Shown here: positions 42,018-63,962 of the stretch, piece by piece | How the letters are laid out: each line of letters begins with the position of its first letter | Numbering within the stretch: position 1 is the first letter of the stretch | Source: Amphiplicatus metriothermophilus | GTDB taxonomy: Bacteria; Pseudomonadota; Alphaproteobacteria; Caulobacterales; Parvularculaceae | Direction: 5' to 3' | Length of the DNA stretch: 64,000 nucleotides | Assembly: GCF_900199215.1 (NCBI RefSeq) | Contig: NZ_FZQA01000001.1 | Location: 248,001 to 312,000 of the forward strand | Position numbers and translations under genes: made by a program | Notes under the pieces: model-generated | What the model was told of the DNA's origin: nothing | The model's input: only the letters and a program-made list of their open reading frames with translations | Database searches by the model: none

Positions 42018-43511
42018 TCAGTGCGCGTTTTTAGGGAATAACACCGCGAATACGGTGAGCGACAATATCTTCAGATCGAACCACAGCGACCAGTTGTCAA
42101 TATAGGCGAGGTCGTAACGCACCCGCGCTTCCATAAGCTCGTTTTCCGAGGTCTCGCCGCGGCACCCGTTGACCTGGGCCCAACCGGTGATGCCGGGCTT
42201 GACCTTGTGGCGACCGGAATAGTTCTCGATGATTTGGGCGTAGGCGTGATTGTGGGCGAGTGCGTGAGGCCGCGGCCCTACAAGCGACATTTCGCCTTTC
42301 AGAACGTTAATCAGCTGCGGCAGCTCGTCGAGGCTGTAACGCCGCAGGAATCGGCCGATCGGGGTGATCCGCGGATCGCCCGGATGCGCCTGCACGATCC
42401 TGTCGCCGTCTTCGGCGACCGTCATGGTGCGAAACTTATAGATGCGAAAAACAGAATGATTGAAGCCGTGACGCTTCTGCGCGAACAGGACCGGCCCGCC
42501 GTCCTGCAGCTTGATGGCCGCGGCGATCGCCGCCATCAGCGGCAGCGCGAGAACAAACAGCGCGCCGCCGAGGGCCATGTCCTCAAGCGACTTGAGAAGG
42601 CCTCCCCATCCTTCCAGCGGCCGCCGATAGAGATTGAGCACCGGCGCGCCGCCGATCCGCGCGAGCTCGCCGCCGGTGTGATTGAGCCAATACGCCGTGG
42701 GGCAGATGGCGATCGAAACCGGAAGCACGGACAATCGCTGCACCAGGGCGTCCATCCGCTCGGCGCTGGCGTCGGGTTCCGCGATCACGATATCGTCTAT
42801 GGCGCCGGCGCGCGCCGCGCGCGCCAGCGCTGCAAGGTCGCCGTCGACGACCGCAGCCTTTCGCGCCGACGCGCCCGCCAAATCGCTTTCAAAGACGCCC
42901 ACGATCGAGACCGCCTGCTCGGAGGCGCGCGCAAGCTCTGCGAACTTTTGCGCGGCGTCGTTGGAGCCGACGATCGCGATGCGGCGCGCGAACGCTCCGT
43001 CTTCCTTCACCGCTCGCCGCAGCACCGCGCCGGCGACGAAGCGCGTCGTCACCAGCGCCACGGCGCAGGTCGCGAACCAGGCGAACAGCCAGAACCGCGA
43101 AAAGCTCTCGGAGATTTTGAATGAAAAGGCGAAGGCGATGAGCCCGAGCACCACAAGCGCCCAGCGCGAGACGACCGCGCGCACCCCCAAAGCCGGGGAC
43201 AGGATCTGATCGAATTCGTAAAAGCCGTCGCGACGCAGAATGGCGGTGGCCCCGGTCGCGCCGAGAATGCCGGCCGCCAGATATCGCTGCAGATCGACGT
43301 CGGCGGCGATGACGAACGCATGATAGACATAGGCCGCCGCCGGCGCGGCCGCGGTGACCAGGATGAAGTCGATGAACTGAACGATATCGCCGTATATCGA
43401 TCGGGCGAAGGGCGCCCGTCGGCGGCTGCCTCCTTCCGGCGTCGTTTCCGCCTCCCCCGCTCCAGCCGCCCGTCCAAGGCCAGGCGCCGGCGTCGCATCG
43501 GAATCCGCCAT
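42018..43511 (-). CDS. Undecaprenyl-phosphate glucose (hexose) phosphotransferase, WcaJ-like
   Basis: About 497 residues from the ATG at 43511, which has GGAGG 10 nt upstream; an ATG at 43565 lacks one. Four or five N-terminal membrane helices and a CoA-binding-like middle region (RIAIVGSNDAAQKFAEL) precede the bacterial sugar-transferase domain with FAQKRHGFNHSVFRIYKFRT and YSLDELPQLINVLKGEMS followed by LVGPRP. It moves a sugar phosphate from UDP-sugar to undecaprenyl phosphate, beginning repeat-unit assembly on the inner membrane. It precedes ugd in the same transcript direction. Confidence 0.92.
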   Translation of the reverse strand: MADSDATPAPGLGRAAGAGEAETTPEGGSRRRAPFARSIYGDIVQFIDFILVTAAAPAAAYVYHAFVIAADVDLQRYLAAGILGATGATAILRRDGFYEFDQILSPALGVRAVVSRWALVVLGLIAFAFSFKISESFSRFWLFAWFATCAVALVTTRFVAGAVLRRAVKEDGAFARRIAIVGSNDAAQKFAELARASEQAVSIVGVFESDLAGASARKAAVVDGDLAALARAARAGAIDDIVIAEPDASAERMDALVQRLSVLPVSIAICPTAYWLNHTGGELARIGGAPVLNLYRRPLEGWGGLLKSLEDMALGGALFVLALPLMAAIAAAIKLQDGGPVLFAQKRHGFNHSVFRIYKFRTMTVAEDGDRIVQAHPGDPRITPIGRFLRRYSLDELPQLINVLKGEMSLVGPRPHALAHNHAYAQIIENYSGRHKVKPGITGWAQVNGCRGETSENELMEARVRYDLAYIDNWSLWFDLKILSLTVFAVLFPKNAH

Positions 43512-43744
43512 CGGCGCGGAACCTCCATCTCCCCCGCGGGGATTTACCACGTCATCGACGAACATTCAGCACCGTAGTTGTGACAACAGGCATGCGGCAT
43601 TGCAAAAAGCTTGCTCATTCCCCCGGCGGTTGCGTCGACTTTTCGCTATGGCGGGATGCGTCTAGCCTAGTCCCCCGATGGGGTGAATAGAGGGCGCCAT
43701 GCCGGATCGCCCCCCGAGGGCCGGTTCGGCGCGGAGGATGTTCC

Positions 43745-48420: not shown

Positions 48421-51400
48421 TCAGATTTCCACCGTCACCGTCACGGGCGTTTTGGTGAAATTTCCGTGCTCGTCCTCGGCCCAGTAGTAAAATGTGTCCT
48501 CGCCTTCGAAATGCGGATCGGCGTAATAGAGGATCTTGCCGTCCTCCGTGGCGACGATATGGCCGCGTCCCGCCTCGAAGCCGTCTAGCGAAATCTCATC
48601 GCCGTCAGGATCGAAGTCGTTGGCCAGGACGTCGATGACTACGAATGAGCCGGCCTTGACGCTCGCCTGGTCGGCGACCCCTACCGGCGCGGCGCTGTCG
48701 AGGTCGAGCACGCCGTTATACTCGATATCCGTGCGGAACCGCTTGCCGTAGAAGGGATCATACGGGTCGAGGGAGTAGGGAAGCTCGAAGAAGATGCCGA
48801 CCTTCTGGAGCTCGCCCGTGAGGCGGTCCGCGACGAACTCCTCGACCAGGGTCACGCGCCGGCCGTCTTCAGTCAGCCAGTAGCCGTTCTGTTCGATCGC
48901 GCCGCGAAGCTGCAGATAGCCGATCTTCGTCGGATCCCATATGAAAGAGGTCGCTATCTCGCCCAGCGAATCCGTCTTGACGCCGACCAGCTCGAGCGGC
49001 TTGTCGTTGTGGCTCGGCCCCTGGTGAATGGAGTCAAGGAAGATCGAATCATAACTTGCAGAACGCTCGATGATATCGCCGCGATTCAGAAAATGATGGG
49101 CGGAAACTTCACCGAAATGCGCATTGAAATCTGCGTGTTTCCAATTCGTCACGTTCACGTCAATGAAGAAATAGCCGAAATCCTCGATCGGTATAGCGTC
49201 GTTCGTGGCGTCGTTCAGTATTTGCACGCCGGTGACGAATCCTTCGATATTGGCGCCGTCGACCACCATGTCGAACAGGTTTCGACCATACGCGACGCCG
49301 ATCGTCCATGGTTTGACGGAGAAATTCTCCGCCGCCGTCGCGACGAAATCGAGATCGATGAAAGTATAGCGCGAGGTGTACTCGATGCTCAGGCCGTTGG
49401 CCACCTCCCACGCCGTGAAATCCTCGATTACCGACCGCGCGTCGTGGTGCTGCTGCGGGTGCAGCTTCACGACCTTAAGCCCTCCGCGCGCTGCGATGAC
49501 TTCATTTCCGGAGAATTGCGTGATGTTGGCCTTGTTGACGTCGGTTACGTCGAGATAACGCAGCTTGTCGTCCTGCGGCGCGGCGGAAGGATCAAGCGTG
49601 TGAATGAAATCAGGCGGCGCGCGGTGATGGAAGATGAATCCCTTGCCGCCCGGCATGCCGGCCGCAACGTTGTCTACCACCTCCACGAGCCGCCCCTGCA
49701 GCCAGAAGCCGTCGCCGGTGCGGCCAAGATCGAAGGCTAGAACGTCTTCGCCGTCCTTGTCGCCTCTGTTAAGGCCGATCGACTTGATGGCGATGTTATG
49801 GACCCAGCGCCCCGTTTCGGTGCCGAGCTCGGCGACGAAGGCCGCGCCGAAGACGTCATAAGCGGCGTTGTCGGCGAGGATGGCGTTCGAATCGTGATGC
49901 ACGAAGCCCCAGCCGGGCGAGCCCCAGACCGCATTGCCGACGATCATGGCCGGGTCTTCGAGATCCCCGGTTCCGGCGCGATGGATATGCAGCGGGTAGC
50001 GTCCCTTCACATTCGAATCCGGCGCGATCGCATCGAGCTCGCCGGCTTCGGTGGCCCGGTGCGCCTTGTCGGTGCGGCCGAGCTCGTAAAACTCGGCGTA
50101 ACGCACGTCTATGTCGTCGGAGTGCATGAACATGACGTGGCCGCGCTGATGCGCAGGCAAGCCGTCAGCGTTTTCCGTCTCGACGCGGATATTGCGCGTG
50201 TAATTCGCGACATAGGCCTTGAGATCGTCCCGCGCGCCTTCGTGATTGTACTGGAGCGGGCGATCCACATGCACCGTATTGCCGTCGATGGCGACGATGA
50301 CGAGTTCTTCATCTTCGGTGTCGCCGGGGTAGGGCTCGCCATATTCGGCTTCGCCATGGGGGGTCAGATGCGTGCCTGTGAGCACGAGCTTGTCGCCGAC
50401 GCGCCAGCCTTCGGGCGGAGATTCGAGCACCAGCGCGGTGTCGCCCTTCATCGGATCGACCGCAAGGCGCACAAAGGCGTCTTTCTGCGCGCCGTGGATC
50501 TCGACGGCGCCGTGGCTGATCAGCCCGCGCGAGAGCAGCATGGGATCCCAAGCGACGTCGATGGGCCCGTTGTCCGCAATCGAGATGACCGCCTGAACGT
50601 CTGGCGCGACGGGATTTTCCGTCGTGCCGATCCTCAGCGTTCCGCTCGGCGCAACCACCAACGTGTCGACCTCGAGAAAAGTGTCGCGATCGGTCGCAAA
50701 ATCAAGCTCGCCGTCGACGCGAATAGTGAAGATCGAGGCCGGGCTCTCCCCGTCGTAGGAGACGGTCACGCCCGCCGGGATGACGACCTTCGCGCCGTCG
50801 CCGGGAATCTCGCCGTTCGCCCAGGTAGCCGGATCGAACCAGGAGCCGCTCTTGATCGCCGTATGCGTCGCCTCCTCAGCCGGCACGAGATTGAGCAGTG
50901 CGATGTGTTCAGCCTGTTTGGCCGGATCGTCCGGGTGGGGATGGCCGTGCCCGTCGTCGCCGGAACCGTGGTGATCATGCCCGTCGTCGCCCTGACCGCC
51001 TTCGTCGTGATCATCGTGGCCGTCGTGGCCGTCGCCATCATGCCCTTCGCCGCCGGGTTCAGCGACGCCCGCCGCTTCGTTGTCGACGAGAATCTCGAAG
51101 CGGGCTTCACGCAGAACGCCGTCCTGATCACGATAGCTGAAGGCGATGTTCGCCGGTCCCGAATAGCCGGGGGCAGGCGTGAAGTGCACGACCGAGCCGT
51201 GCAACATGGTCGTTCCATTTTCGACTGAGAGGATCTCGACGATTTCCGCCGCGCCGGGCGCCGCGGCGAGGAGCTCGGCGACCGGTATTTCAGTCGTCGA
51301 CCCCTCGGCGACGGGATAACCCTCTCCGCTGGAAGGCGGAGGCGGCGGCGGAGGCGGCGGCGGCTCTCCGCCGCCGGGGCCGACCATATCCGGATCGCGG

Positions 51401-51597
51401 TCGCCCAGCGTCTTGCATCCCTGAATCGCCAACAAGGCGGCGACGAGGCCGGCCTCGCCGATACGCGATTTCATCGCGCGGCGGCGGGCGCGTCTGCCCG
51501 AAGGCGCGGCCGGCATGGCCGCCCCGGCCCTAGCCGCTCGCAAAAGTTCGCTGAGATCAAGTTCCGAGAACTTTGTGTCCGCCGCCAAACGCTTCAT
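48421..51597 (-). CDS. Large G8-domain surface protein with Ig/cadherin-like repeats and His/Asp-rich linker
   Basis: 1058 residues from the ATG at 51597 (AAGGGG 7 nt upstream). An unusual 45-residue basic leader precedes a hydrophobic segment and lipobox-like LLAIQGC (Cys61), then Pro-rich residues 79-88. Residues 95-173 form an Ig/cadherin-like module. A His/Asp/Gly linker (185-224) precedes the G8 domain (about 248-370, GSWFDPATWANGEIPGDGAK then VVIPAGVTVSYDG) and a long parallel-beta-helix region with HIHRAGTGDLEDPAMIVGNA. Another Ig-like module (about 975-1058, VIDVLANDFDPDGDEISL) closes it. G8 proteins of the CEMIP type bind or act on polysaccharides such as hyaluronan; here a role on the neighbouring exopolysaccharide is inferred. 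Confidence 0.85.
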   Translation of the reverse strand: MKRLAADTKFSELDLSELLRAARAGAAMPAAPSGRRARRRAMKSRIGEAGLVAALLAIQGCKTLGDRDPDMVGPGGGEPPPPPPPPPPSSGEGYPVAEGSTTEIPVAELLAAAPGAAEIVEILSVENGTTMLHGSVVHFTPAPGYSGPANIAFSYRDQDGVLREARFEILVDNEAAGVAEPGGEGHDGDGHDGHDDHDEGGQGDDGHDHHGSGDDGHGHPHPDDPAKQAEHIALLNLVPAEEATHTAIKSGSWFDPATWANGEIPGDGAKVVIPAGVTVSYDGESPASIFTIRVDGELDFATDRDTFLEVDTLVVAPSGTLRIGTTENPVAPDVQAVISIADNGPIDVAWDPMLLSRGLISHGAVEIHGAQKDAFVRLAVDPMKGDTALVLESPPEGWRVGDKLVLTGTHLTPHGEAEYGEPYPGDTEDEELVIVAIDGNTVHVDRPLQYNHEGARDDLKAYVANYTRNIRVETENADGLPAHQRGHVMFMHSDDIDVRYAEFYELGRTDKAHRATEAGELDAIAPDSNVKGRYPLHIHRAGTGDLEDPAMIVGNAVWGSPGWGFVHHDSNAILADNAAYDVFGAAFVAELGTETGRWVHNIAIKSIGLNRGDKDGEDVLAFDLGRTGDGFWLQGRLVEVVDNVAAGMPGGKGFIFHHRAPPDFIHTLDPSAAPQDDKLRYLDVTDVNKANITQFSGNEVIAARGGLKVVKLHPQQHHDARSVIEDFTAWEVANGLSIEYTSRYTFIDLDFVATAAENFSVKPWTIGVAYGRNLFDMVVDGANIEGFVTGVQILNDATNDAIPIEDFGYFFIDVNVTNWKHADFNAHFGEVSAHHFLNRGDIIERSASYDSIFLDSIHQGPSHNDKPLELVGVKTDSLGEIATSFIWDPTKIGYLQLRGAIEQNGYWLTEDGRRVTLVEEFVADRLTGELQKVGIFFELPYSLDPYDPFYGKRFRTDIEYNGVLDLDSAAPVGVADQASVKAGSFVVIDVLANDFDPDGDEISLDGFEAGRGHIVATEDGKILYYADPHFEGEDTFYYWAEDEHGNFTKTPVTVTVEI

Positions 51598-51978
51598 GGC
51601 AAACAACCCCTTAACAAAGCGTACCCGTCCGTAGACTGCGTAAAATCGCAACCTCGCGCAGCTCAGGCGCGCACATGATCGGCTGAAATTCCTTAAGCGC
51701 AGGCTACTGAGCGCCGCCTAATTGCGCCACGGCATCAAGCGCGCCTTTCCAACCTTTAAGAGGGCGTCGACGTCATCGCCGTATGCGGCGGAATGTCGAT
51801 GGGGGCGCGTCGTCACGCCGCGCCGGCATGGGCTTTATGAGAGACGCTCTTTTGGCGAAACATTCAGGAAATACAAGGCTGTTTTAGTGATCCTTGCGCG
51901 GATTACAAATCGGCAAGGCGCATGCGCGCCCGCCAGCGGCGAAGGAGCGCGTCGGGAGTTCCTTTCGATGAAATTTCA
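51598..51978. other. Intergenic region upstream of the G8 gene
   Basis: 381 bp between the G8 gene start and the 2OG oxygenase stop, both on the minus strand. It should hold a promoter for the G8 gene. A 12-bp palindrome ATGAAATTTCAT (51968-51979) overlaps the oxygenase stop codon. A plus-strand frame of 86 codons (51722-51982) is open but has a mixed composition, no family likeness and no good ribosome site; I do not call it a gene. Confidence 0.5.
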
Positions 51979-52865: not shown

Positions 52866-53519
52866 TTATTCGGACGGGCGCGTTGCAATTCCCGCTCCCT
52901 GAACTCCGACGGGTTCCCCGCCGGCCGGCGGGGTCGGGCGGGCCGCGCGCGGGATGATCCGCGCCGGCACTCCCGCGGCGAGAGCGCCGGGGGGCACGTC
53001 TTCAAGCACCACCGCGTTGGCCCCGATCGTTGCATCCGCTCCGATCGTGATGTCGCCGATGATTACGGCGCCGGCGCCTATGTCGACACGGTCGCCTATG
53101 GTCGGTTTCGCGTTTGGATCGCGCCGGTCGGCGACGCCCATGGTCGTGTTCTGGCGAATCACTACGTCGTCGCCGATCCGCCGGGCGCCGACGATGATGC
53201 CGCCGAAATGCTCGATCTTAACGCGCCGGCCGACCGGCACGTTGTAAGATAGTTTCACCCCGCAGAAGATCTCAGTCGCCTTGAACATAATGCGATAGAC
53301 GGCAGTCAGCGGCGCGCGCAGCAGCTTCGAGCGCACGCTCATGCGCCAGTTGCCGAAACGGTGCCAGAACAGCGCCCAGAATCCCTGACTGAGCCAGTCG
53401 CCGTCGTGAGTGCGGAAATCCTCCGCCACCAGCGCCCAGAATCCGATATCCTTCGGGTTTTCATTACGCGCCCCGTCAGGCAACGGCGGCGCGAGCGGTC
53501 TGGCGGAGCGCTCCTTCAT
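52866..53519 (-). CDS. Serine acetyltransferase-like hexapeptide-repeat transferase
   Basis: 217 residues from the ATG at 53519, which overlaps the GT2 stop as ATGA. An N-terminal helical part (FWALVAEDFRTHDGDWLSQG) is followed by a left-handed beta helix: KIEHFGGIIVGARRIGDDVV, RQNTTMGVADRR, ATIGANAVVLEDVPPGALA, GVPARII. Serine O-acetyltransferase is the closest named family, but such proteins in exopolysaccharide clusters usually acetylate sugars. The 53567 start would add 16 residues overlapping GT2. Confidence 0.82.
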   Translation of the reverse strand: MKERSARPLAPPLPDGARNENPKDIGFWALVAEDFRTHDGDWLSQGFWALFWHRFGNWRMSVRSKLLRAPLTAVYRIMFKATEIFCGVKLSYNVPVGRRVKIEHFGGIIVGARRIGDDVVIRQNTTMGVADRRDPNAKPTIGDRVDIGAGAVIIGDITIGADATIGANAVVLEDVPPGALAAGVPARIIPRAARPTPPAGGEPVGVQGAGIATRPSE

Positions 53520-54517
53520 CGCTTGGTTTTCCGCGCCAGATCTTCCGGCATCGGCGTCATGAGGCATGATCGCACGAAGTCCTTAATGAAGCCGTCGGCG
53601 AGCCCGCTCTGGCGACCCCGCAGACGGCGGTGAGCAGTGCAGACCATCATCCCTGTCAGCCGCGCTGCTGCAGCCAGACGAGCGTAAGCCGGCCCGTGAT
53701 TCTTCGCATAATAGCGCAGCCAGGAAGCGAACCAGTAGGCCGGCATGCGGCCGGCGCGCGGCCGCCCCCCCGCCATGCCCGTCGACGCGCCCGCCGCATG
53801 GACCACCCGCGCGGCGGGCACGTGCCAGATCTCCCATCCGCGCGCGGCCGCCGCGCGCTGATAGTCGGTCTCCTCGAAATAAAGGAAATAGCCCGCGTCC
53901 ATGTCGCCGACCTCGTCGAGCAGCGCCGCACGCAGCATCATCGCCGCGCCGGAGACCCAGTCGACCCGACACGGCGCGGCCGCGCCGGCTTGCACGGTCG
54001 GCCACGCCCGCTGAAGGAAGCCGATTCCGGCCGCGCCGGCAAATTCACGGCCGGCGCTGGGAAAATGAAACGCGGCATGACGCGGCGAGCCGTCCGGGTT
54101 TTCAAGGCGCGCGCCCGCCACCCCCGCGCGCGGTTTCGCGTTCAAGAAATCCGCCAGCGCGCCGACGGCGCCGGATTGCGGCGCCGCGTCGGGATTGAGA
54201 AGCAATACGAAATCGGGACGCAGCTCTGCGCGCCGGATTTCAGCGAATGCGAGATTGTTGCCGCCTGCGAAGCCGATGTTCACTGGACTCTTGATAAGGC
54301 GCACACGGGCGCTCAACCCTTCCCCCTCTATGAAGCCGGCCAGCTTTTCTGTATCGCCGCCAGGCGATGCGTTATCGACAATATAAACCTTCGACCCTGG
54401 AAATGCTTCCAGTTCGGCCAGAAGGTCCCGCAGATTTGCGACGACAAGGTCAGCCGTGCCGTAGTTTACCGTCACAACGGCGATGCGCGGCGAGCTGGCG
54501 ACTTTCTTCGTCGTCAT
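53516..54517 (-). CDS. GT2-family glycosyltransferase (rhamnosyltransferase-like)
   Basis: 333 residues. GT-A fold elements are IAVVTVNYGTADLVVANL, VYIVDNASPGGDT, NIGFAGGNNLAF, FVLLLNPDA (the DXD-like metal site), and YFLYFEETDYQRAAAARGW with the catalytic acid, followed by a C-terminal amphipathic helix region. This is the WbbL/rhamnosyltransferase arrangement. It adds a sugar to the lipid-linked repeat unit at the cytosolic face. Both ends overlap neighbours as ATGA, so translation is coupled with the double GT2 and the acetyltransferase. Confidence 0.9.
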   Translation of the reverse strand: MTTKKVASSPRIAVVTVNYGTADLVVANLRDLLAELEAFPGSKVYIVDNASPGGDTEKLAGFIEGEGLSARVRLIKSPVNIGFAGGNNLAFAEIRRAELRPDFVLLLNPDAAPQSGAVGALADFLNAKPRAGVAGARLENPDGSPRHAAFHFPSAGREFAGAAGIGFLQRAWPTVQAGAAAPCRVDWVSGAAMMLRAALLDEVGDMDAGYFLYFEETDYQRAAAARGWEIWHVPAARVVHAAGASTGMAGGRPRAGRMPAYWFASWLRYYAKNHGPAYARLAAAARLTGMMVCTAHRRLRGRQSGLADGFIKDFVRSCLMTPMPEDLARKTKR

Positions 54518-56703
54518 TTCTCCAGCGCCTTATATTCGACCAGACGACTGCGCGCGCCGCGCATGCGATTGGCCCAATAACGAAGAATGCCGACGGTTTC
54601 AGCAAATTTACCGAGCACGGATAAACAGGAGAATACAAGTGCGTCCGCTCCGTAACGGTTTCGCCATTTCAGAGTCAGCCGCATGATTTGCGCCGGATAG
54701 ATTGTCAGAGCCGAAAGAAAAGCAGGGTGCGCAGCCGCCGATATGAACGCCGCCGGCGCGACTCCCGCCCAGACAAGCGCCCGGCGCGCCTCACGCGCCC
54801 AAATGCGCAGCGGCGCGCCGCGATGCAGATCCGAAATCTCGGCGTAGGCGTGTCCGGCCCGCACGGAACGTCGCCACCATTGCGAAAATCGGGTCATCGC
54901 GGCGTCATGCAGCGTCATCTCCGCCTCAAGGCGCCAGATTCGCCAGCCTGCCTGGCGCAAACGCAGACACAGTTCGGGCTCTTCTCCCGCGATGAGATCG
55001 TCCCGGAAGCCGCCTGCGTCTTCGAAAACCCTGCTGCGCATCAGCGCGTCGCCGCCGCAAGCGAGCGCTTCGCCCGCAGGCGTGTCCCATTCGGCGTCGC
55101 ACAAACGATTGTACACGCTCGCTTGCGGATTGCGCTCGCGTCGGCGTCCGCAAACCACGGCGACGTCGGGGCGGGCGTCGAGGAACGCCGCGGCCGAATC
55201 GACCCAGCCGTCGACGAGCGCGCAGTCGCCGTCGACAAACTGAACATAGTCTGCATCCGGCGCGACCTCCATAAGCCGCGCAAAACCGGCGTTGCGCGCG
55301 CGCGCGGCGGTGAACGGAATCGTCGGGTCGAGTCGGACCACGCTGGCGCCGGCGGCTTCGGCCGCCGCGATGCTGTCGTCGGTCGAGCCGGAATCGACAT
55401 ACACGACCGGCCCGCCGGCGCGCGCGAGCGAGTCAAGACAGGCGACGAGTCGCGCGCCCTCATTGCGGCCAATGGCCACATGACCGACCCGAGAGCCGCG
55501 CGCGGAACCGCTCATCGCTCGCCGTCCCTCCCGGCCCGCGTCCACGTCTGCGACGAGGCGCGCGCGCGCGCTATAGACCCGGAACTTGTCGAGCGCATGG
55601 CCCGCCAGGGCCGGCAGATAGGCCGGCGGCAGCGCGTCGCGCCCGAACCCGACCCAGGCCGCCGCGCTTGCGACGATAAGCGAACTCATCGCCCCGCAGC
55701 TCATGTAGAAGGGAGCCGACGCCCCGCTCCAGGCCAGCGGCGCGAGACCGACAAGGCAAAGCCCGCCGACCGCCGCCGCGAACAGCGCCAGCGGCGGAAT
55801 GAGCAGATCGAGCGCGGCCGCTGCAAGGCGCGCGTCGCGCCGGCGGGCCGCCTTCGCCAGCAGACCGGGCGCGCGGCGCCAAGCAAGGCGCAGCGAGCCA
55901 TGCTCCCAGCGCGCGCGCTGCAAGACGGCGCTGTCGTCAGCCTTGGGAAAGTCGCTCTCGACAACGGCGTCGAGAACGAGAAGCGGCGGCGCGCCCCTTT
56001 CGATCAGCGCCGCAGACAAGGCGAGATCCTCGACGATCTCGCAACTGGCGAGATCGAGCTCCGCCGCCAGCGCCCAGGGCAGCGCCATGCCGGTCCCGGT
56101 CAGGCGGGTCACGTCGAACAGACGCGCCAGCCCCGCCATCCGCACGCGGTTCATGACGAGCCAGGCGAATTCCGCGGCGCGGCGCGGCGCCGGCGCGTCG
56201 TCCGGCGCGCGCATGAGATAGAGCGCCTGCGCCGGCCGGCCGCTTGCGGCTGCGGCGGCGGCGACGCGATCGAGCGCGCCGGGCCGCAATCGGCAGTCCG
56301 CGTCGATGAACACGACGATCGACGGCGGCGCGGGCTTCAGCGCGTCGAGCGCGAATTGCAGCGCGTAGCCTTTGCCGCGACGGGCAGGCTCATTCCGTAT
56401 GAGGACTTCCGCGCCCGCTCCCGAGGCGACGGATGCGGTGTCGTCCGAGCAGTTGTCGGCGACGACGACGAGCCGGTCCTCCCGCCAAAGCTGCGCGCGT
56501 ATGTTTTCAAGGACGCCCGCCAGGCCGGCCGCTTCGTCATGGGCGGGGACGACGACGGCGAGCGGCGGGCGGGGGCCCGTCGGCGCGACGCGGGGCGGAA
56601 GAAAGGCGGCGAGCACTTCAAGCGCGTAAAAGGCTGCGAGCGCGAGCGCCGCGAGCGCCAGAACGAACAGCGCGGTTTCGAGAAGGAAGGCGAGCGCGCT
56701 CAT
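54514..56703 (-). CDS. Bifunctional membrane protein with two GT2 domains
   Basis: 729 residues. An N-terminal helix leads into GT2 domain 1 (about 46-270) with VVPAHDEAAGL, DNCSDDT (83-89), DADC (134-137), IVED (223-226) and QRARWEHG (262-269), followed by membrane helices (about 295-352). Domain 2 (about 402-625) has GHVAIGRNEGARL, VVYVDSGSTDDS (433-444), VQFVDGDC (487-494) and GEEPELCLRLRQAGW, then a C-terminal membrane helix. Both domains look catalytically complete, so one chain could add two sugars. Domain 2 is homologous to the degenerate domain of the ATPase fusion upstream. ATGA overlaps link it to the GT4 and GT2 genes. Confidence 0.88.
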   Translation of the reverse strand: MSALAFLLETALFVLALAALALAAFYALEVLAAFLPPRVAPTGPRPPLAVVVPAHDEAAGLAGVLENIRAQLWREDRLVVVADNCSDDTASVASGAGAEVLIRNEPARRGKGYALQFALDALKPAPPSIVVFIDADCRLRPGALDRVAAAAAASGRPAQALYLMRAPDDAPAPRRAAEFAWLVMNRVRMAGLARLFDVTRLTGTGMALPWALAAELDLASCEIVEDLALSAALIERGAPPLLVLDAVVESDFPKADDSAVLQRARWEHGSLRLAWRRAPGLLAKAARRRDARLAAAALDLLIPPLALFAAAVGGLCLVGLAPLAWSGASAPFYMSCGAMSSLIVASAAAWVGFGRDALPPAYLPALAGHALDKFRVYSARARLVADVDAGREGRRAMSGSARGSRVGHVAIGRNEGARLVACLDSLARAGGPVVYVDSGSTDDSIAAAEAAGASVVRLDPTIPFTAARARNAGFARLMEVAPDADYVQFVDGDCALVDGWVDSAAAFLDARPDVAVVCGRRRERNPQASVYNRLCDAEWDTPAGEALACGGDALMRSRVFEDAGGFRDDLIAGEEPELCLRLRQAGWRIWRLEAEMTLHDAAMTRFSQWWRRSVRAGHAYAEISDLHRGAPLRIWAREARRALVWAGVAPAAFISAAAHPAFLSALTIYPAQIMRLTLKWRNRYGADALVFSCLSVLGKFAETVGILRYWANRMRGARSRLVEYKALEK

Positions 56704-57938
56704 GGCGCTTTCTCCCCCCTCTGGCCCAGCGCGGCCGCGAAATGCGCCTTGAGCTTGCCCGCCTCGACGTCGATGTCATGAAACGCGCGCGCGCGCTCCT
56801 TGCCGGCCTGTCCCATCGCGACGAGCGCCGTCTCGCTCATGTCCAGCGCCGCGCGCATGGCCGAGGCGAGCGCTTCGGCGTCGCCTGCCGGCGCAAGCCA
56901 GCCGTTTTCGCCCGCGCGCACGAGTTCAGGAATCCCCGCGACATAGGTTGCGATCGCCGGCCGCGCGAGGCTGAACGCTTCCATGATCGACACGGGCAGG
57001 CCTTCCGCATAGCTCGGCAGCACGAAAACGCGCGCGCTCTCGATTTCCGCGCGCACTTCGGCCGGGGTCTTCCAGCCGGCGAACTCGATGCGATCGGCGA
57101 CGCCCTGCGCTTCTGCGGCGGCCTCGATGTCCGCGCGCATCGGCCCGTCTCCAACAAGACGTATGCGAAACGCCCGCCCTTCGCGCTTGAGCAGGGCCGC
57201 CGCCTCTACGAGCGTGAGCTGGCCTTTTTGCTCGCACAGGCGTCCGACGCTGACGAAAACCGGAACGTCGTTCGACGCACGCGCCGCTTCGCGCGCCGGG
57301 GTTTCAAAAAAGTCTTTCTCCACGCCGCAGCGCACGATGCGAATGCGCTCCCACAACGCAGGGGGAACGAGGCGGCGAAGCTGGCTCGCCCCGTAATGGG
57401 AGACCGCGACCACGAACGCCGCCGCTTCGATCTTCGCCGCGAGGCCGATGAGACCGGGCTTGTCGAACTCTTCCGGCCCGTGCACGGTCATGCTGAAGCC
57501 GACATCCGCGATGCGCGCAGCGAGCATGGCGACGGTCGCGGAATTGGTGCCGAAATGGGCGTGGACATGGCCCAGCCTCTCGCGCCTCAACCAGTCGGCG
57601 AGCGCCAGCGCCTCGATGTAATAGACGACATGGCGCAGCAGCCCGGTTTCTGAGCGCCAGCCGAGACGGAGCGCGCCCGCAAGCGCCGCAAGGGAACGGG
57701 CGGGCGCGCGGGCGGCGGCGCGCGCGACGCTGGCAATGATCGCGCCGGCGCCCGCCCCGATAATATAACGCGTGCGCGCAGCCTCATCCTCGTCCTCTTT
57801 CGCGACGATTCCATCGCGCGAAGGGCGCACGGCGAAGCGTGCGATCTCGACCCCCTGACGCTCCAGCGCCTGGATCTCGCGCCTGATGAAACTGTGGCTA
57901 ACCGCTGGATACTGGTTGACCAGATAGGCGACGCGCAT
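56700..57938 (-). CDS. GT4-family glycosyltransferase
   Basis: 412 residues from the ATG at 57938 (GGGGAGAGG just upstream; ATG 57956 is the alternative). The start MRVAYLVNQYPAVSHSFIRR is typical of GT4 enzymes in exosortase-associated and colanic-acid-like clusters. GT-B features are HVHAHFGTNSATVAMLAA, VSVGRLCEQKGQLTLVEAAA, RLVGDGPMR and the E-x7-E motif EGLPVSIME. It adds a sugar from a nucleotide donor with retention. The 23-bp gap after the ATPase fusion and ATGA overlap with the next gene place it within one operon. Confidence 0.92.
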   Translation of the reverse strand: MRVAYLVNQYPAVSHSFIRREIQALERQGVEIARFAVRPSRDGIVAKEDEDEAARTRYIIGAGAGAIIASVARAAARAPARSLAALAGALRLGWRSETGLLRHVVYYIEALALADWLRRERLGHVHAHFGTNSATVAMLAARIADVGFSMTVHGPEEFDKPGLIGLAAKIEAAAFVVAVSHYGASQLRRLVPPALWERIRIVRCGVEKDFFETPAREAARASNDVPVFVSVGRLCEQKGQLTLVEAAALLKREGRAFRIRLVGDGPMRADIEAAAEAQGVADRIEFAGWKTPAEVRAEIESARVFVLPSYAEGLPVSIMEAFSLARPAIATYVAGIPELVRAGENGWLAPAGDAEALASAMRAALDMSETALVAMGQAGKERARAFHDIDVEAGKLKAHFAAALGQRGEKAP

Positions 57939-57961
57939 CCTCTCCCCACGGATCATGAGCG

Positions 57962-60169
57962 TCAGGCTTTCGCGCGCTTCGACGGCGCGGGGAAATAGAA
58001 CCGCCAGGCCCCGGCGAATTCAGGAAACGACGCGAAGGTCGCGGCCAGCGCCGCGCGCCAGGCGGCCAACCGGCCGGGTCCGCGCCGGACTGCGATGACG
58101 ATGACGCGCGCAAGATACGTCGCCGCGCCGGCCGCAAGCGGCGCGGCCGCAGCCAAGAGCGGACTTGCCGCCGCGTCCGTTATCCGGGCCAGCGCCGCAG
58201 CCGCAAGCGCGGCGAGAATGACGAGAACAGGGATTCCCGCTCCCCAGACCAGCGTTTGCAAATGCTCGCGCACGAAAAGCCGTTCGGGCCTGCCGCCATG
58301 CAGTCGCACGCCGTGGGCGTATTCGTAGCCGGCGCGCTGCGCGTTTCGCCACCACTGCGCGAAAGAGACCGGGCGCGCCCTGCCGTCCCCCCGGATCATC
58401 TCCGTATCGAGCCGCCAGACCCGGCCGCCGCGACGACGCAAGCGGATGCACAGATCGCGCGTTTCGTTCACGGCAAGATCGCCGCGATAACCGCCCGCAG
58501 CCTCGAAAGCCTCAGCGCGCACGAAAAGATTCTCGCCCGTCGTCCGTATCTCTTCTTCCCCGCCCCCCGCGCGGCCTTCCAGCGCCGCCACCTCCGGCCG
58601 CCGCTCCATAAAGCGCGCGGCCGCCTCGAGCCAACCTGGCGCGAGGATGGCGCCGGCTTCGAGGAACTGGACGTAGCGCAGCCCGGGCCGGCGCCGCTTG
58701 AGGGAGCGATAGCCGGCGTTGCGGGCGCGCCCCAGGCTTGAGGGACTGTCGGCGACGACGACCTCCGCGCCGGCCGCGCGCGCGGCGGCCGCGTCGGCCG
58801 TTTCGGCGTCAGCCGCGACATAAATGATCGCGAAGTCCTGGCCGGGCGAGCGTATGGTCGCGTCTGCGCGCGCGCCGGCGCCGACCACTACGACGCCGAC
58901 GCGCTCACGCAACGTCTCCGTCTGCGAAGGCGCAGCGTTCAGCGGCGTTTCGGGAAAAGACGACGCCTCGGGCCGCGGCGCGGCCGCGAGCGCGTCGCTT
59001 CCGCCGCCGGCCATGGCGATCTGGCGCGGGGCGGGCTCCGCCTCGACAGCCGAACGGAACGACAACCTGTTCTCGACGGCGCGAAGCGCGGCGCCTTCCG
59101 GCGCGGACTGGAGCGCTGGCTGGGGAGCGGCCAAGGCTTGCCGACGCGCCGGCATGCGCGGCGCGTCGTGGGGCGGATCAAGCCGACGCATGGACGAAAG
59201 GACCGACGAGGAATAGCCTGCAGGGCGCGCTTCAGCCTGCTGTTCGCGTCCGCCTGCGTTATTCGGCTCTCCCTTGATGAAAGCGGTCGGTCCGTCGGCC
59301 CGACTTCTCGTACGGCTGTCTTCGGCGCCGGCCGGCGCATTGATGCGCGCAGCGTAGCCGAATACGCCGTATTCGTTCTTGTCGCGGATAACGTTGCGGA
59401 CGATCTCGACGTCGACCACGAGATCCTGCGCGGAAAAGGCGTAAACGAGCGCCGTATCGGCGATGATGTTGATGACGCGCGGCACGCCGGCGGACTGCTC
59501 CGCGATCAGCTCGACGGCGCGATCAGTGAAGATGCGCCGTTTCGCGCCGGCGATGGAAAGGCGCGTGTCGATATACGCCGCAACCTCTTCCGCCCCCAGC
59601 GCCTGAAGGTGGAAATCAGCGCCGACGCGCTGGGCGAGCTGGAGCATGTCTGGCCGGTTGAGCAGCTCCTTGAGCTGCGGCTGTCCCACCAGGATGAGCT
59701 GGAGAAGCTGGTCCTTGCCGGCGTTGATGTTGGAGAGCATGCGCAGCTCTTCCAGCATGTCGACAGAAAGGTTTTGCGCCTCGTCGATGATGAGCACGAC
59801 GCGCCGGCCCTTGGCGTATTCGCCGATGAAGAAGCTCTGGATTTGCGCGAACAGCTCGACATGGCTCTTGCCGGCGAAGGGCTGGCCGAAGCCCATCAGC
59901 ACCCAGCTCAACAGATCGCCGCGCCCCTCCTGGATGTTGGAGATAAGCGCCACCGTATGGGTGTCGGAAAGCTGGTCGAGCAGGCGGTGAATAAGCGTGG
60001 TCTTGCCGCAGCCCACCTCGCCGGTGACGATCGAAATTCCCGCCTGGTTGAGGACGCCGTATTCGAGCATGGCGTAGGCGAGCCGGTGCCCGCGCCCCCA
60101 ATAGAGAAACGCCGGGTCCGGAAGAATGGAAAACGGCTTTTCGCTTAGGCCGAAGAACTCTTCGTACAT
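57962..60169 (-). CDS. Exosortase-system AAA ATPase (ExeA/GspA-like) fused to a degenerate GT2-like domain
   Basis: 735 residues from the ATG at 60169. Residues 1-270 are an ExeA-like ATPase of the type found in PEP-CTERM/exosortase loci: YEEFFGLSEKPFSILPDPAF, Walker A GEVGCGKTT (50-58), Walker B VVLIIDEAQ (124-132), sensor LILVGQPQL, and SAGVPRVINIIAD. A disordered linker (about 270-420) joins a GT2-like domain (about 423-624) and two membrane helices. That domain aligns with the second GT2 of the 54514-56703 protein, but DSGSTDD is replaced by AADAETAD, VDGDC by LEAGA, and GEEPEL by VNETRDL. So it is probably a non-catalytic pseudo-glycosyltransferase. The ATPase may act in polysaccharide chain length or export control, as Wzc-like partners do. 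Confidence 0.88.
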   Translation of the reverse strand: MYEEFFGLSEKPFSILPDPAFLYWGRGHRLAYAMLEYGVLNQAGISIVTGEVGCGKTTLIHRLLDQLSDTHTVALISNIQEGRGDLLSWVLMGFGQPFAGKSHVELFAQIQSFFIGEYAKGRRVVLIIDEAQNLSVDMLEELRMLSNINAGKDQLLQLILVGQPQLKELLNRPDMLQLAQRVGADFHLQALGAEEVAAYIDTRLSIAGAKRRIFTDRAVELIAEQSAGVPRVINIIADTALVYAFSAQDLVVDVEIVRNVIRDKNEYGVFGYAARINAPAGAEDSRTRSRADGPTAFIKGEPNNAGGREQQAEARPAGYSSSVLSSMRRLDPPHDAPRMPARRQALAAPQPALQSAPEGAALRAVENRLSFRSAVEAEPAPRQIAMAGGGSDALAAAPRPEASSFPETPLNAAPSQTETLRERVGVVVVGAGARADATIRSPGQDFAIIYVAADAETADAAAARAAGAEVVVADSPSSLGRARNAGYRSLKRRRPGLRYVQFLEAGAILAPGWLEAAARFMERRPEVAALEGRAGGGEEEIRTTGENLFVRAEAFEAAGGYRGDLAVNETRDLCIRLRRRGGRVWRLDTEMIRGDGRARPVSFAQWWRNAQRAGYEYAHGVRLHGGRPERLFVREHLQTLVWGAGIPVLVILAALAAAALARITDAAASPLLAAAAPLAAGAATYLARVIVIAVRRGPGRLAAWRAALAATFASFPEFAGAWRFYFPAPSKRAKA

Positions 60170-60241: not shown

Positions 60242-62644
60242 TCAGTTCTGCGCCAGAAGCCGCCTGGCCTCTTCGATCCATGCTCCTTGACCGCCGGCCT
60301 CCACCGCTTTTTGCAGTTCGGCGCGCGCTTTTTCGGTCTCGCCGATCGCAAGGTACGCCGCGCCCAAATGATAATGCGCCTCGCCGAAGCCGGTCGAGCC
60401 TGCGAGCGCTTTCTCCAGATTCTCGATGGCGCTTTCGTGGTCGCCCGCCCGGTGCTGCGCCCAGCCGAGCGTATCGAGAAAATAGGGATTCTCGCTGCCC
60501 TTCAGCACTTCGGCCGCCTTCAGCGCCTTGGCGCGGCTTTCCGGATCGTCGCGGAGTTCGCCGAGCAGGCTCGCATAATTATTAGACGCGAGAAGATCGC
60601 CTGGCCGACGCTCAAGGATATCGGCATACATCGCGAGCGCCTCCTCTTTACGGCCGCCCGCGAGAAGATAGTCGGCCTTGTAAATGCGCGCGCCGATATT
60701 GTCCGGAGCGGCGGCGATCGCGGCGTCGAGCATCGCTCCGGCTTCGTCGAGCCGGCCGCCGGCGACCATAAGGCGATAAAGAAGCTCGATCGCCTCGGCC
60801 CGTTCCGGCGCCCGCGCAAGCGCCTCTTTCAACGTCGCTTCCGCTTCATCGCGCCGATCGAGCGTTGCGAGCGTTCGAGCGAGCAATATTCTCGCCTCGT
60901 AATTGTCCGCATTCGACTCGATCATCGAACGCAGCATCCCGATCGCCTCTTCGCTGCGGCCGCTTTGGACATAAGCCCCCACTAGCGTCGCCAGCGGGCG
61001 GCCTGACAGCGACTTGCGGACGTTTTCCTCGCCAAGGGCGTCGATGACGCCGGCGTAGTCTTTGAGTCCCGCATAGGCCGCGGCGCGAATGCGGTTAACT
61101 ACCGGATCCTCGGCGCTCGCCTCTTCAATGCGCTTCGCCGTTTCCTCAGCTCCGCGCCAGTCCTGCCGCATGAGCCGAACCGCAGCGAGAAGCTTGAGGT
61201 TCTCCAGATCAGAAGGGTGCTTTTCGAGCGATTCGACCAGCGTTCGCTCCGCCAGCACGACATTATTGGCGCGCATCAGCAGCTTGGCGTAGGCGTTCGT
61301 GATGGTCGGATCATTTCCGCTGTCGGCGACGGCCTGGGCGAGCTGGCTCTTGGCGTACTCGATGTCGCCCTTGCGCTCGAATGCGGCGGCCATCAGCGCC
61401 TTAGCCTGAGCAGAATCGGGCTGATCCTCGAGCGCCGTACGCAGATCAAGAATCGCATCGTCGTGCTCGCCGGCGTCGATCTTGAGGCTAGCTCGCTTGA
61501 GAAGCGCTTCCGTATTCCTGTCGTCCGTAGCCAGAATTTCATCGATGATCGCGCGCGCCTCTTCCTTCTCGCCCTGAAGAAGCCGCAACGCGGCGATTTC
61601 GTTGCGCGCGCGCAAGGTCACGGCGGCGTCGCCCTTGCGGGCGGCGAGCGCTTTGAACACCGCCTCCGCGCCGGCGAGATCGCCCTGCTGTCGCAGAAAG
61701 CCCCCGAACCGGAACTGCAGCTCCAGATCGTCGGGACGAGATTCGATATAACGTCGGAAGATTTCCTTCGCGGCCTCTGCGCCGTTCAGGCGGTTTTCGA
61801 TCCGCACGACGTCAAGCACCGCATCCGCATTGCGGGGGCGCAGCCGCGCGATTTCTTCGAGCTGCGCCTTGGCGAGCGCATATTTCTTTTCGTCAAGCAA
61901 CGTTTTTACGAAAAGCTGACGATAGGCGACATTATCAGGATAAAGGGCAATCACTTCCCGATGCGCCTGGAGAAGATCCTCCGTACGTTCCATCTTCGCC
62001 AGAAGCTGAAGGCGCAGCAGATGCAGAACCGGAATGTTCGCGTCGGCCGCCAGCCCTTTTTCCACCTCGGCGAGAGCGGCTTCTTCGTCGCCCGACTTCG
62101 CGCGCTCGGCCGCGATTACGGCGACGGCTTCGGGCGTGGCCGGATCGATGGCCAGCGCCTTGCGCGCAAGCTCCGTCGCGCCCGCCATATCGTCGAGACG
62201 CAGCAGCACGGCGGCCTTGAGCGCGATCGCCTCGGCGTTCTCCGGATCAAGCGCGATCGCGGCGTCGGCGGCTTCCATCGCGGCGGTCTCGTCGCCGCCG
62301 ACCAGATAAAGCTTTCCGAGATCCACTCGCGCCTCGACCTGGCTCGGATCGAGCCGGACGACGCGCTGAAGGATCCCGAACAGATTATCGAAATCCTGCT
62401 TGCGCTCGGCGATCTCCGCGACCCCCAGCAGCGCCGGCACATGATCCTCGTTGATCTTCAGCGCGTTCTGGAACTGCACGTTCGCCTTGCCGAGGTCGCC
62501 TTCCGCCAGGAACTCCTGACCGCTCTGGGTATAACGGGCGAGTCTCTCCTCGGGCGAGGAGCACGCCGCGGTCGCCGAAATCAGGAGGACGCCCGTCAGA
62601 GCCGCCAACCGCAAGCCGCGCTTCAATCTCGCTTCGGTCCTCAT
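60242..62644 (-). CDS. prsT: PrsT-like TPR-repeat lipoprotein of exosortase/PEP-CTERM systems
   Basis: 800 residues from the ATG at 62644, chosen because AAGGGAG lies 9 nt upstream. A signal with lipobox-like SATAAC is followed by some twenty tetratricopeptide units, e.g. GKANVQFQNALKINEDHVPA, AEIAERKQDFDNLFGILQR, AIENLEKALAGSTGFGEAHY and LGAAYLAIGETEKARAEL. Length and layout match PrsT, the TPR protein of exosortase-linked polysaccharide loci. It probably forms an outer-membrane or periplasmic scaffold for polymer export. It lies between the WecG-STAS gene and the ATPase fusion. Confidence 0.88.
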   Translation of the reverse strand: MRTEARLKRGLRLAALTGVLLISATAACSSPEERLARYTQSGQEFLAEGDLGKANVQFQNALKINEDHVPALLGVAEIAERKQDFDNLFGILQRVVRLDPSQVEARVDLGKLYLVGGDETAAMEAADAAIALDPENAEAIALKAAVLLRLDDMAGATELARKALAIDPATPEAVAVIAAERAKSGDEEAALAEVEKGLAADANIPVLHLLRLQLLAKMERTEDLLQAHREVIALYPDNVAYRQLFVKTLLDEKKYALAKAQLEEIARLRPRNADAVLDVVRIENRLNGAEAAKEIFRRYIESRPDDLELQFRFGGFLRQQGDLAGAEAVFKALAARKGDAAVTLRARNEIAALRLLQGEKEEARAIIDEILATDDRNTEALLKRASLKIDAGEHDDAILDLRTALEDQPDSAQAKALMAAAFERKGDIEYAKSQLAQAVADSGNDPTITNAYAKLLMRANNVVLAERTLVESLEKHPSDLENLKLLAAVRLMRQDWRGAEETAKRIEEASAEDPVVNRIRAAAYAGLKDYAGVIDALGEENVRKSLSGRPLATLVGAYVQSGRSEEAIGMLRSMIESNADNYEARILLARTLATLDRRDEAEATLKEALARAPERAEAIELLYRLMVAGGRLDEAGAMLDAAIAAAPDNIGARIYKADYLLAGGRKEEALAMYADILERRPGDLLASNNYASLLGELRDDPESRAKALKAAEVLKGSENPYFLDTLGWAQHRAGDHESAIENLEKALAGSTGFGEAHYHLGAAYLAIGETEKARAELQKAVEAGGQGAWIEEARRLLAQN

Positions 62645-62738
62645 GAACGCCATCTCCCTTGTCGAACCTCTCGCCTCGCCTGTTCCGACCTGAACCGCTT
62701 CGCCGGCCGCAACCGCCGTCTGCAATGGTCTTGCCGCC

Positions 62739-63962
62739 TCAGGCCGAGACGGCGGCCTCAGCCGTCGCGCCGCCGCCTGCGGAGCGCCCCGCCGAGCACG
62801 GATAATTCATCGCGTTGCTTCTGAAAACCGCGCGCGCGGCGCGCGACAAGAACGCCGTCTCCAGCCGCGCGCCGCGGCGGCGCGCATGTTTTTCTAGCAT
62901 CAGCACAAGCCCCATGAAGGCGCCATCGAACCGTCCGACGGCGGCGAAATCAAGGCGGACCGCAGGGGCGTCGGACGCGGCCGCTTCGCGAAACGCGCGC
63001 CTCACGACCGCCAGATCGGGGGCCAGAAGATCGCCGGAAAGCCGGACGACCGTCGCCCCCGGCTCCCGGATCACCATGGCGTCGGCCCGCGCGCCCGAAC
63101 GCCGGGCGGCGCGCATCGCAAGAAGCTGTCCGGGCAGTCGGCGGGCTGCGAACGCAAGGAGCGTCGCTCCGTCTGTCGCATAACGCCGCCACAGGGCCGG
63201 CTCCTCGCGGATACGCCACAGCCATTCGAATCCGAACCTGCGCCAGCTTTCCGGCGCGCGCCGCACGGTTCCCGCCGTGAAGTTCACGACGGCGCCGAGA
63301 TTGGCGACGACCGGCGCGTTCAGGCGATGCTGATTGCGCGCAATCCAGGCCTGGCCTTTCGCCGCGCTCACCGAGACGACGACCATGTCCGCCTCGGCTT
63401 GATTGACGGTCTCGATGGTCGTCTCGCCGCTCATCGATTCGACATCGCCGAACCCGGGATTGAGCCAGCCGGCAGGCTCGAGCCCGCCCCGATCGAGCGC
63501 CAGCGCCGCAGCGGCTTTCGCCGCGGCTCCCTCTTCGCCGCCAAAGAAAAAAATCCGGCGACGCCGACCGGACAGGCCGGGACGCGCCCGCAACGCCTCA
63601 AACAGATCAGAGCCGGCGACACGGCCGGGAACGCGCGCGCCCAACAGCCGGGCGAGCGCCGCCAGGGGCGCCCCGTCGATGAAGCTCATATCGGCGTCGA
63701 TCGTCTGCCGGCGCGCTTCGGGATCGCGCAGAAACCGCACGAGCCAGTGCACGTTCGGGGTGATGAAAGCGAGCCGTCGCCGATCGCGCATGGCCGCCTC
63801 CACCGCGGCGGCGGCCGCGCCGAGGTCGATCAGATCCACCGGCATGCCGAAAACGCACCAGACCGGCCGGTCGAAATCGTCGCGCGGAAGCGCGCGAACG
63901 TCTCCTTTTGCGGGAAAATCCCGTCCGACCTGCACGTCCCGAGATGAGACAGACGCCGTCAT
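62739..63962 (-). CDS. WecG/TagA/CpsF-family glycosyltransferase with C-terminal STAS-like domain
   Basis: 407 residues. The GT26 domain (about 30-265) has FITPNVHWLVRFLRD, MSFIDGAPLAALARLLGARV, PGRVAGSDLFEALRA, RIFFFGGEEGAAAKA, ANLGAVVNFTAGTVRRAPES and FGFEWLWRIREEPALWRRYA. Residues about 295-385 form a STAS/anti-sigma-antagonist-like fold: ATVVRLSGDLLAPDLAVVRR, APAVRLDFAAVGRFDGAFMG, LVLMLEKHARRRGARLE. The conserved STAS serine position appears as FDGAFMG, lacking an obvious phosphorylatable Ser. The enzyme transfers N-acetylmannosamine-type or related sugars to a lipid-linked acceptor; the STAS part may link it to a regulator. First gene of the cluster in the window. Confidence 0.88.
   Translation of the reverse strand: MTASVSSRDVQVGRDFPAKGDVRALPRDDFDRPVWCVFGMPVDLIDLGAAAAAVEAAMRDRRRLAFITPNVHWLVRFLRDPEARRQTIDADMSFIDGAPLAALARLLGARVPGRVAGSDLFEALRARPGLSGRRRRIFFFGGEEGAAAKAAAALALDRGGLEPAGWLNPGFGDVESMSGETTIETVNQAEADMVVVSVSAAKGQAWIARNQHRLNAPVVANLGAVVNFTAGTVRRAPESWRRFGFEWLWRIREEPALWRRYATDGATLLAFAARRLPGQLLAMRAARRSGARADAMVIREPGATVVRLSGDLLAPDLAVVRRAFREAAASDAPAVRLDFAAVGRFDGAFMGLVLMLEKHARRRGARLETAFLSRAARAVFRSNAMNYPCSAGRSAGGGATAEAAVSA

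Follow-up and report, generated by a model that had tools for sequence, protein, structure and literature searches.

A stretch of 64,000 nucleotides from Amphiplicatus metriothermophilus (contig NZ_FZQA01000001.1, positions 248,001 to 312,000; hereafter the window) contains a gene in which an ExeA-like ATPase is fused, through a low-complexity linker, to a GT2-type glycosyltransferase domain that has lost its catalytic residues (Table 1). Such fusions form a single clade, their GT2 domain is under purifying selection and ends in a predicted membrane hairpin, and the gene belongs to a conserved operon of the exopolysaccharide (EPS) type. A role that seems plausible, though somewhat short of probable, is that of a conserved inner-membrane assembly or docking subunit of the EPS synthesis complex. 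The architecture of the protein and its evolution are firm, while its function is what we infer from sequence comparison and structure prediction.

The fusion is a real gene and not a product of assembly. Its ATPase domain scores 98.7 bits against PF13401 (AAA_22; gathering cut-off 27 bits), with an intact Walker A motif (GEVGCGKTT, residues 50-58) and Walker B stretch (VVLIIDEAQ, residues 124-132), of which residues G50, G55, K56, T57, D129 and E130 are invariant in 27/27 fusion sequences. A first-pass annotation, made from the sequence alone, had described this uninterrupted frame and its Walker motifs correctly without giving the strand, which is minus. A whole-protein search of named genome contigs returned 66 loci; both domains lie in one frame with a complete ATPase end in 41 locus copies, of which 31 are distinct, frames starting after ATPase residue 1 having been skipped (loci are numbered L, genomes G and genera g). 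Copies at contig ends (L058, L059) were left out of the fusion set and copies with cut C-termini (L051, L052) out of the domain counts, while two alignments, A1 and A2, comprise the window copy and 26 relatives, leaving out L008, L012, L051 and L052. The named hosts are given as Marinicaulis, Parvularcula, Parvularculaceae and an unplaced alphaproteobacterium, one of them being the strain Marinicaulis flavus SY-3-19 (L042). Because 31 distinct fusion frames were recovered, one of them from this strain, an assembly join or frameshift at the linker, against which the annotation had advised a check, is ruled out. Relatives share 74-87% identity with the window copy over the ATPase and 38-51% over the C-terminal domain.

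The GT2 ancestry proposed for the C-terminal domain is supported by its predicted fold. The match to PF13632 (GT2) at residues 544-673 is barely above the cut-off (27.9 against 27 bits), and profile searches of solved structures with alignments A1 and A2 gave no match. The AlphaFold2 model of residues 416-735, built with 27 aligned sequences, is one confident unit (predicted local distance difference test, pLDDT, 92.2; predicted template modelling score, pTM, 0.85) in which two long and two shorter hydrophobic helices follow a GT-A core. Foldseek finds 139 matches to this model in the PDB at E ≤ 0.001, led by the mannosyltransferase 6yv7 (E 1e-7, TM score 0.61); the best 50 of the 139 are all glycosyltransferases or polysaccharide synthases, and the matches include cellulose synthase, hyaluronan synthase, TarS and TarP. 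Hydropathy peaks at residues 643-661 and 676-694 form the predicted membrane hairpin. As the annotation had observed, the domain also aligns along the second GT2 domain of the nearby protein encoded at 54514-56703 (122 bits, E 7e-37, 38% over 247 columns), with a Smith-Waterman score of 359 compared with 69 for the highest of 1000 shuffles. Fold, aRNxG motif, C-terminal hydrophobic helices and operon type are common to the EpsD/MftF-like GT2 enzymes (NF041875, TIGR03965, PF13632), whereas the fused domain lacks their catalytic and nucleotide-binding residues, is attached to an ATPase and remains below the NCBIfam cut-offs.

GT2 enzymes rely on a small set of motifs for catalysis and nucleotide binding, and seven key positions within them were compared between 29 fusions (the window copy and 28 relatives) and 23 stand-alone relatives. 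The stand-alone sets exclude four distant GT2 enzymes (L024, L025, L026, L068) as well as L032, a copy of the fusion type that a contig end cuts short. All seven positions are kept in 23/23 stand-alone relatives; the window copy keeps none, be it the nucleotide-binding Asp, the DXD or the base, no fusion keeps more than three, and the domain is degenerate in 29/29. The Asn of the NEG motif is kept in 3/29 fusions and its Glu in 0/29, the VDSGS Asp in 0/29 and the next Asp in 2/29, the first Asp of DXD in 16/29 and the second in 8/29, and the base position is acidic in a single copy (L049). The window copy has lost NEG, DSGSTDD, DGD and the second Glu of EEPE, whose first Glu and last acid remain as E569 and D572. 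The losses listed in the annotation (DSGSTDDS, DXD and the EEPE acid) thus stand for this copy, but that of DXD is not general, because six relatives (L034, L039, L040, L043, L046, L054) and L032 keep both Asp. More widely, 27 columns that are near-invariant in 42 stand-alone sequences are mostly lost in the fusions, and a conserved His present in 42/42 of the former occurs in 0/29 of the latter.

The domain has nevertheless been kept, in agreement with the suggestion that it was retained as a non-catalytic module. Fifteen positions are conserved in the fusions only, among them R488, R524, E526, D564, D572 and R580, each in 29/29. The ratio of non-synonymous to synonymous substitution rates (dN/dS) of the C-terminal domain is 0.058-0.152 in seven close pairs, for which the other operon products give 0.121-0.212 (EpsU-like GT2), 0.124-0.186 (WecG-STAS), 0.092-0.151 (PrsT), 0.015-0.035 (the ATPase domain) and, in five pairs, 0.091-0.131 (GT4) and 0.053-0.087 (2-oxoglutarate, 2OG, oxygenase). 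The domain is therefore constrained about as strongly as the active glycosyltransferases of the operon and more loosely than its oxygenase and the ATPase domain. Of the 14 pairs lowest in dS, 11 give 0.073-0.146 for its soluble part and 0.18-0.30 for the linker, above either flanking domain. Since the purifying selection matches that on active glycosyltransferases and is accompanied by positions conserved in the fusions only, the domain can be regarded as a maintained, neofunctionalised pseudoenzyme that is not decaying, and it clearly exemplifies a GT2 pseudoenzyme that selection has retained.

Phylogeny separates the fused domains from all others. In a quick tree of 71 domains, rooted at its midpoint and with long branches flagged for L008 and L012, a branch with a Shimodaira-Hasegawa-like approximate likelihood ratio test (SH-aLRT) value of 100 separates 29/29 fusions from 42 stand-alone domains, among which are that of the window's neighbour and those of relatives in other families and in a further phylum. 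The annotation had favoured an origin by duplication, but the tree rules out that the domain was copied recently from its neighbour at 54514-56703: the fused domains are a clade of their own, and the neighbour's domain groups with stand-alone enzymes of other genomes, so the origin of the fused domain is old. The ATPase tree (102 rows, quick method, many long branches flagged) likewise unites the 31 fusions in one clade (SH-aLRT 95), which groups with seven unfused syntenic ATPases and that of a Methylophilaceae locus, L062 (98), although it gives no firm branching order among these three. WecG-STAS homologue, PrsT and unfused ATPase occur in the order of the fusion operon at five loci of genera g3 and g8; two further g3/g8 loci have PrsT and the unfused ATPase, and L198 continues with GT4 and EpsU-like genes. 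These unfused ATPases end at, or within about 10 residues of, the start of the fusion linker. L062 has a GT4, an EpsU-like, a WecG-like, a PrsT and an ATPase gene and a motif-complete EpsD-like enzyme, all unfused. Because L062 and the nearest outgroups are unfused, the unfused operon is probably the earlier state; a later fission in g3 and g8 is, strictly speaking, conceivable.

A search for the fusion beyond its locus, as the annotation had recommended, found it across the family. The C-terminal domain is present in 34/62 genomes of a Parvularculaceae sample (g1 8/9, g2 23/28, g4 2/3, g9 1/1) and in 0/21 genomes of g3, g5, g6, g7 and g8; in the g1 exception, G008, the ATPase frame is cut by a contig end. 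ATPase and C-terminal domain share a frame in 33 of the 34, judged by matching open-frame lengths by eye, and the two halves lie on different contigs in G002. A single stop, taken as the terminal stop of the gene, occurs in nine of the 34 domain matches, and the G443 match is split over two frames. No fusion was found outside the family in overlapping samples of the class (385 genomes), order (398) and phylum (398), the scoring being limited to five candidates per genome. In the class sample, the four strong matches from outside the family come from frames of just 314-386 residues; at E ≤ 1e-20, all 43 matching genomes of the order sample belong to the family, and 18 genomes of the phylum sample lie outside it, with frames of 314-552 residues of which those of 492 and 552 were uninspected. 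Weaker class-sample matches sit in frames of up to 1666 residues, and nine such frames of more than 600 residues (L113, L115, L119, L122, L124, L126, L130, L131, L135) showed no ATPase within the 3.1-3.4 kb spanned by their loci, parts of the longer frames being unseen. Conversely, three of eleven long Planctomycete ATPase frames, those scanned (L085, L086, L091), have no GT2 domain. The fusion is thus a single clade, confined to one bacterial family in these samples.

The setting of the gene is also conserved. The operon reads WecG-STAS, PrsT-like TPR protein, fusion, GT4, EpsU-like/EpsD-like GT2, GT2b, acetyltransferase and 2OG oxygenase. Wzz-like (TIGR03007-like) and BY-kinase-like (TIGR03018-like) genes, both below cut-offs, lie just outside the window, and a WcaJ-type sugar transferase (42018-43565) and what looks, from its sequence, like a UDP-glucose dehydrogenase (40638-41963) lie inside it. 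Among 27 related loci (L105 was left out), PrsT stands beside the fusion in 27, the EpsU-like gene in 26 and WecG-STAS in 25, the misses falling at contig ends (L038 for both genes, L043 for WecG-STAS); these counts make the three the constant companions of the fusion. The prsT gene is required for floc formation according to a partial text of PMC9850573.

Table 1. Position in the window and main characters of the fusion gene, its parts and its neighbours
Feature	Position	Strand	Characters
Whole fusion gene	57962..60169	(-)	735 residues, one open frame; ATG 60169, stop codon 57962-57964; relatives full length
AAA_22/ExeA-like ATPase domain, residues 1-270	59360..60169	(-)	PF13401 98.7 bits; TIGR03015 273.6 bits; Walker motifs intact
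Low-complexity linker, residues 271-417	58919..59359	(-)	pLDDT <50 over most of 272-417
Pseudo-GT2 domain with predicted membrane hairpin, residues 418-735	57965..58918	(-)	AlphaFold2, Foldseek, motif loss
EpsU-like GT2 fused to EpsD-like GT2 (neighbour)	54514..56703	(-)	Both below NCBIfam cut-offs (names are nicknames); C-terminal half is a motif-complete relative of the pseudo-GT2
GT4-type glycosyltransferase, downstream	56700..57956	(-)	PF13692/PF00534, EpsE-like; homologue in loci of 14/27 relatives
PrsT-like TPR protein, upstream	60242..62725	(-)	TIGR02917 255 bits, below cut-off 312; adjoins fusion in 27/27 loci
WecG/TagA-type glycosyltransferase with C-terminal STAS	62739..63962	(-)	PF03808, PF13466; one frame in 25/25 loci examined
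Another GT2 (GT2b)	53516..54517	(-)	Homologue beside EpsD-like enzyme in 11/12 fusion genomes with that enzyme on another contig

The distribution of the EpsD-like enzyme was also considered as evidence of partnership. Its copies on another contig in 12 fusion genomes, and six further copies from g3, retain NEG-, DGD- and GEEPE-type motifs in 18/18 and the VDS-type motif in 17/18, and an active EpsD-like enzyme occurs in 33/34 fusion genomes against 9/28 others (counted by eye). This co-occurrence is not relied on: six non-fusion g2/g4 genomes also have no WecG-STAS, and the enzyme occurs in eight g3 genomes that have no fusion. The EPS system seems to come and go as a whole.

The ATPase had been assigned to the XrtA type, and this assignment is not supported. 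TIGR03015, the family of XrtA/PEP-CTERM ATPases, is matched in 62/62 genomes of the Parvularculaceae sample and above its cut-off in 34/62. The fusion matches it over residues 1-263 at 273.6 bits, below the curated cut-off of 324.5, and a separate canonical copy elsewhere in the genome scores 328.8-330.8 bits. In the ATPase tree, a clade of 30 canonical copies (SH-aLRT 99) excludes the fusions, and there is no exosortase match near the locus (C4:306-308 kb), the genome's TIGR02602 matches lying at C4:815218 and C6:31420. The fusion shares with that family the AAA_22 ATPase and neighbours resembling those of XrtA-type EPS loci (PrsT, TIGR03007-like Wzz and TIGR03018-like kinase, all below cut-offs), but it differs in its score, its clade, its attached pseudo-GT2 and its locus. 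The statement that known XrtA-type ATPases stand alone is not absolute either, as some relatives of this ATPase carry a deacetylase, an FHA or a peptidoglycan-binding domain. At L142 (46-2367, minus strand), a canonical XrtA-type ATPase is fused to a polysaccharide deacetylase and DUF3473; observed at one locus, it resembles the present fusion in joining an ATPase of the same superfamily to a polysaccharide enzyme, but it belongs to the canonical clade and carries a deacetylase instead of a pseudo-GT2. Frames of 790 and 814 residues in G019 and G011 may resemble it. L074 (9968-11317, plus strand) encodes a relative of the fusion's ATPase joined to an FHA domain, and L070 (9956-12031, plus strand) one with a peptidoglycan-binding tail and a weak C39-like match, resembling GspA/ExeA.

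Altogether, these findings lead to a model in which ATPase and pseudo-GT2 would both face the cytosol, as the predicted hairpin and the organisation of GT2 enzymes in general suggest. The dead GT2 core and its hairpin, with the shape and helices of active relatives, would dock on the active glycosyltransferases of the operon, of which the EpsU-like GT2 and WecG-STAS are the most constant candidates, and would thereby hold the ATPase at the membrane complex. ATP binding or hydrolysis could then drive assembly or remodelling of the synthesis and export complex, by analogy with ExeA-ExeB. By Rosetta-stone logic, a family-wide fusion hints that the ATPase works at an inner-membrane glycosyltransferase complex. 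GtfB of the serine-rich-repeat adhesin systems, itself a catalysis-deficient glycosyltransferase, offers a works-like precedent for a non-catalytic partner. In a partial text of PMC6973325, GtfB is described as a chaperone that binds the acceptor and GtfA as the transferase; unlike the fused domain, GtfB is a separate protein serving a protein acceptor. For the ATPase, a partial text of PMC4098917 reports that ExeA and ExeB assemble the type II secretin. To the extent described there, ExeA/GspA is an AAA-type ATPase in an envelope-export setting, with one transmembrane helix and a periplasmic peptidoglycan-binding domain, whereas the fusion has a pseudo-GT2 and a hairpin, its inner-membrane tether being predicted. 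A more specific version of the model is possible but rather unlikely: a clade-specific, ATP-driven polysaccharide-assembly factor in which the dead GT2 recruits the ExeA-like ATPase and physically couples EPS synthesis to envelope export.

Several observations weigh against a docking role. The EpsD-like enzyme is found beside the fusion in only 14/27 loci (L036 and L038 being cut by contig ends), so it is not a universal local partner. The same operon occurs without the C-terminal domain in other genera of the family, so the domain is not essential to every version of it. No peptidoglycan-binding domain is matched in the fusion by Pfam at E ≤ 0.001, which sets it apart from ExeA. The full-length model (mean pLDDT 71, pTM 0.47) defines no domain arrangement, because its linker is disordered and stretches of the ATPase fall below pLDDT 50. 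The docking idea is directly testable, given the unfused operon versions of other genera and the named host strain.

Other roles for the domain must be weighed. It could, although this is unlikely, be a sensor that binds the acceptor (an undecaprenyl-linked chain) or a nucleotide and reports to the ATPase on the state of the chain. Indeed, the aRN motif (N in 29/29, R in 25/29 fusions), a downstream Trp (28/29) and the C-terminal hydrophobic helices are retained, and the residues conserved in the fusions only include several Arg, Lys, Glu and Asp. However, every fusion has lost the NEG Glu, the VDSGS Asp and the conserved His, which are putative nucleotide- or metal-binding residues, and the four residues of an E-N-E-W set, located in a loop of the stand-alone enzymes, survive in just 3, 3, 2 and 0 of 29. 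Since it is the nucleotide-sugar pocket that has disappeared, a sensor of such compounds is less likely; of the roles first suggested, namely glycan sensing, chain length control or docking, sugar-nucleotide sensing is thus weakened and docking preferred. It is more doubtful still that the domain is a plain anchor which places the ATPase on the membrane without any specific partner. The two strong hydrophobic helices and the long, loose linker would suit an anchor, but the soluble part is too conserved for one, since 39 of the 42 columns invariant in 27 C-terminal domains precede the helices and dN/dS is low in 11 of the 14 pairs given above. That the domain is still a glycosyltransferase with a non-canonical active site, perhaps in the copies that keep DXD, is very unlikely: both DXD Asp are present in six fusions and L032 and an acidic base position in L049, but at most three of seven key positions survive in any copy, and none of the six has the base, the VDSGS Asp or the conserved His. 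Hardly credible is a decaying, functionless duplicate carried along by the ATPase, for although the former catalytic positions vary freely, the C-terminal domain is less conserved than the ATPase, the G443 match is split and three of the 14 lowest-dS pairs give dN/dS of 0.47-0.65, the constraint equals that on active glycosyltransferases, some sites are conserved in the fusions only, and the three high ratios all come from distant pairs with L054 whose dS seems too small for the dN, which saturation at high GC may explain.

No paper was found on the role of the ATPase in exosortase-type EPS loci, the family's name and "TIGR03015" being missing among the matches listed, and the word "ATPase" does not occur in the main text of the founding PEP-CTERM paper (PMC1569441). 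Judging from match listings, searches of the open-licence literature, including that on pseudo-glycosyltransferases, found no report of an ATPase-pseudo-GT2 fusion.

Further observations concern the surroundings of the gene. The dual GT2 gene at 54514-56703 is a fusion as well: in the 14 related loci where both parts were found, the EpsU-like and EpsD-like enzymes are separate frames. WecG-STAS is a second glycosyltransferase fusion in the same operon, perhaps regulatory. A VPLPA-CTERM protein, of the kind that exosortases take as substrate, is encoded beside the Wzz-like gene outside the window (L099 1365-1919, plus strand; about G000:C4:312365). Finally, positions 48421-51651 (minus strand) encode a protein of 1076 residues with G8, CEMIP beta-helix and Big_9 domains, and many of the 27 fusion loci contain homologues of it downstream.

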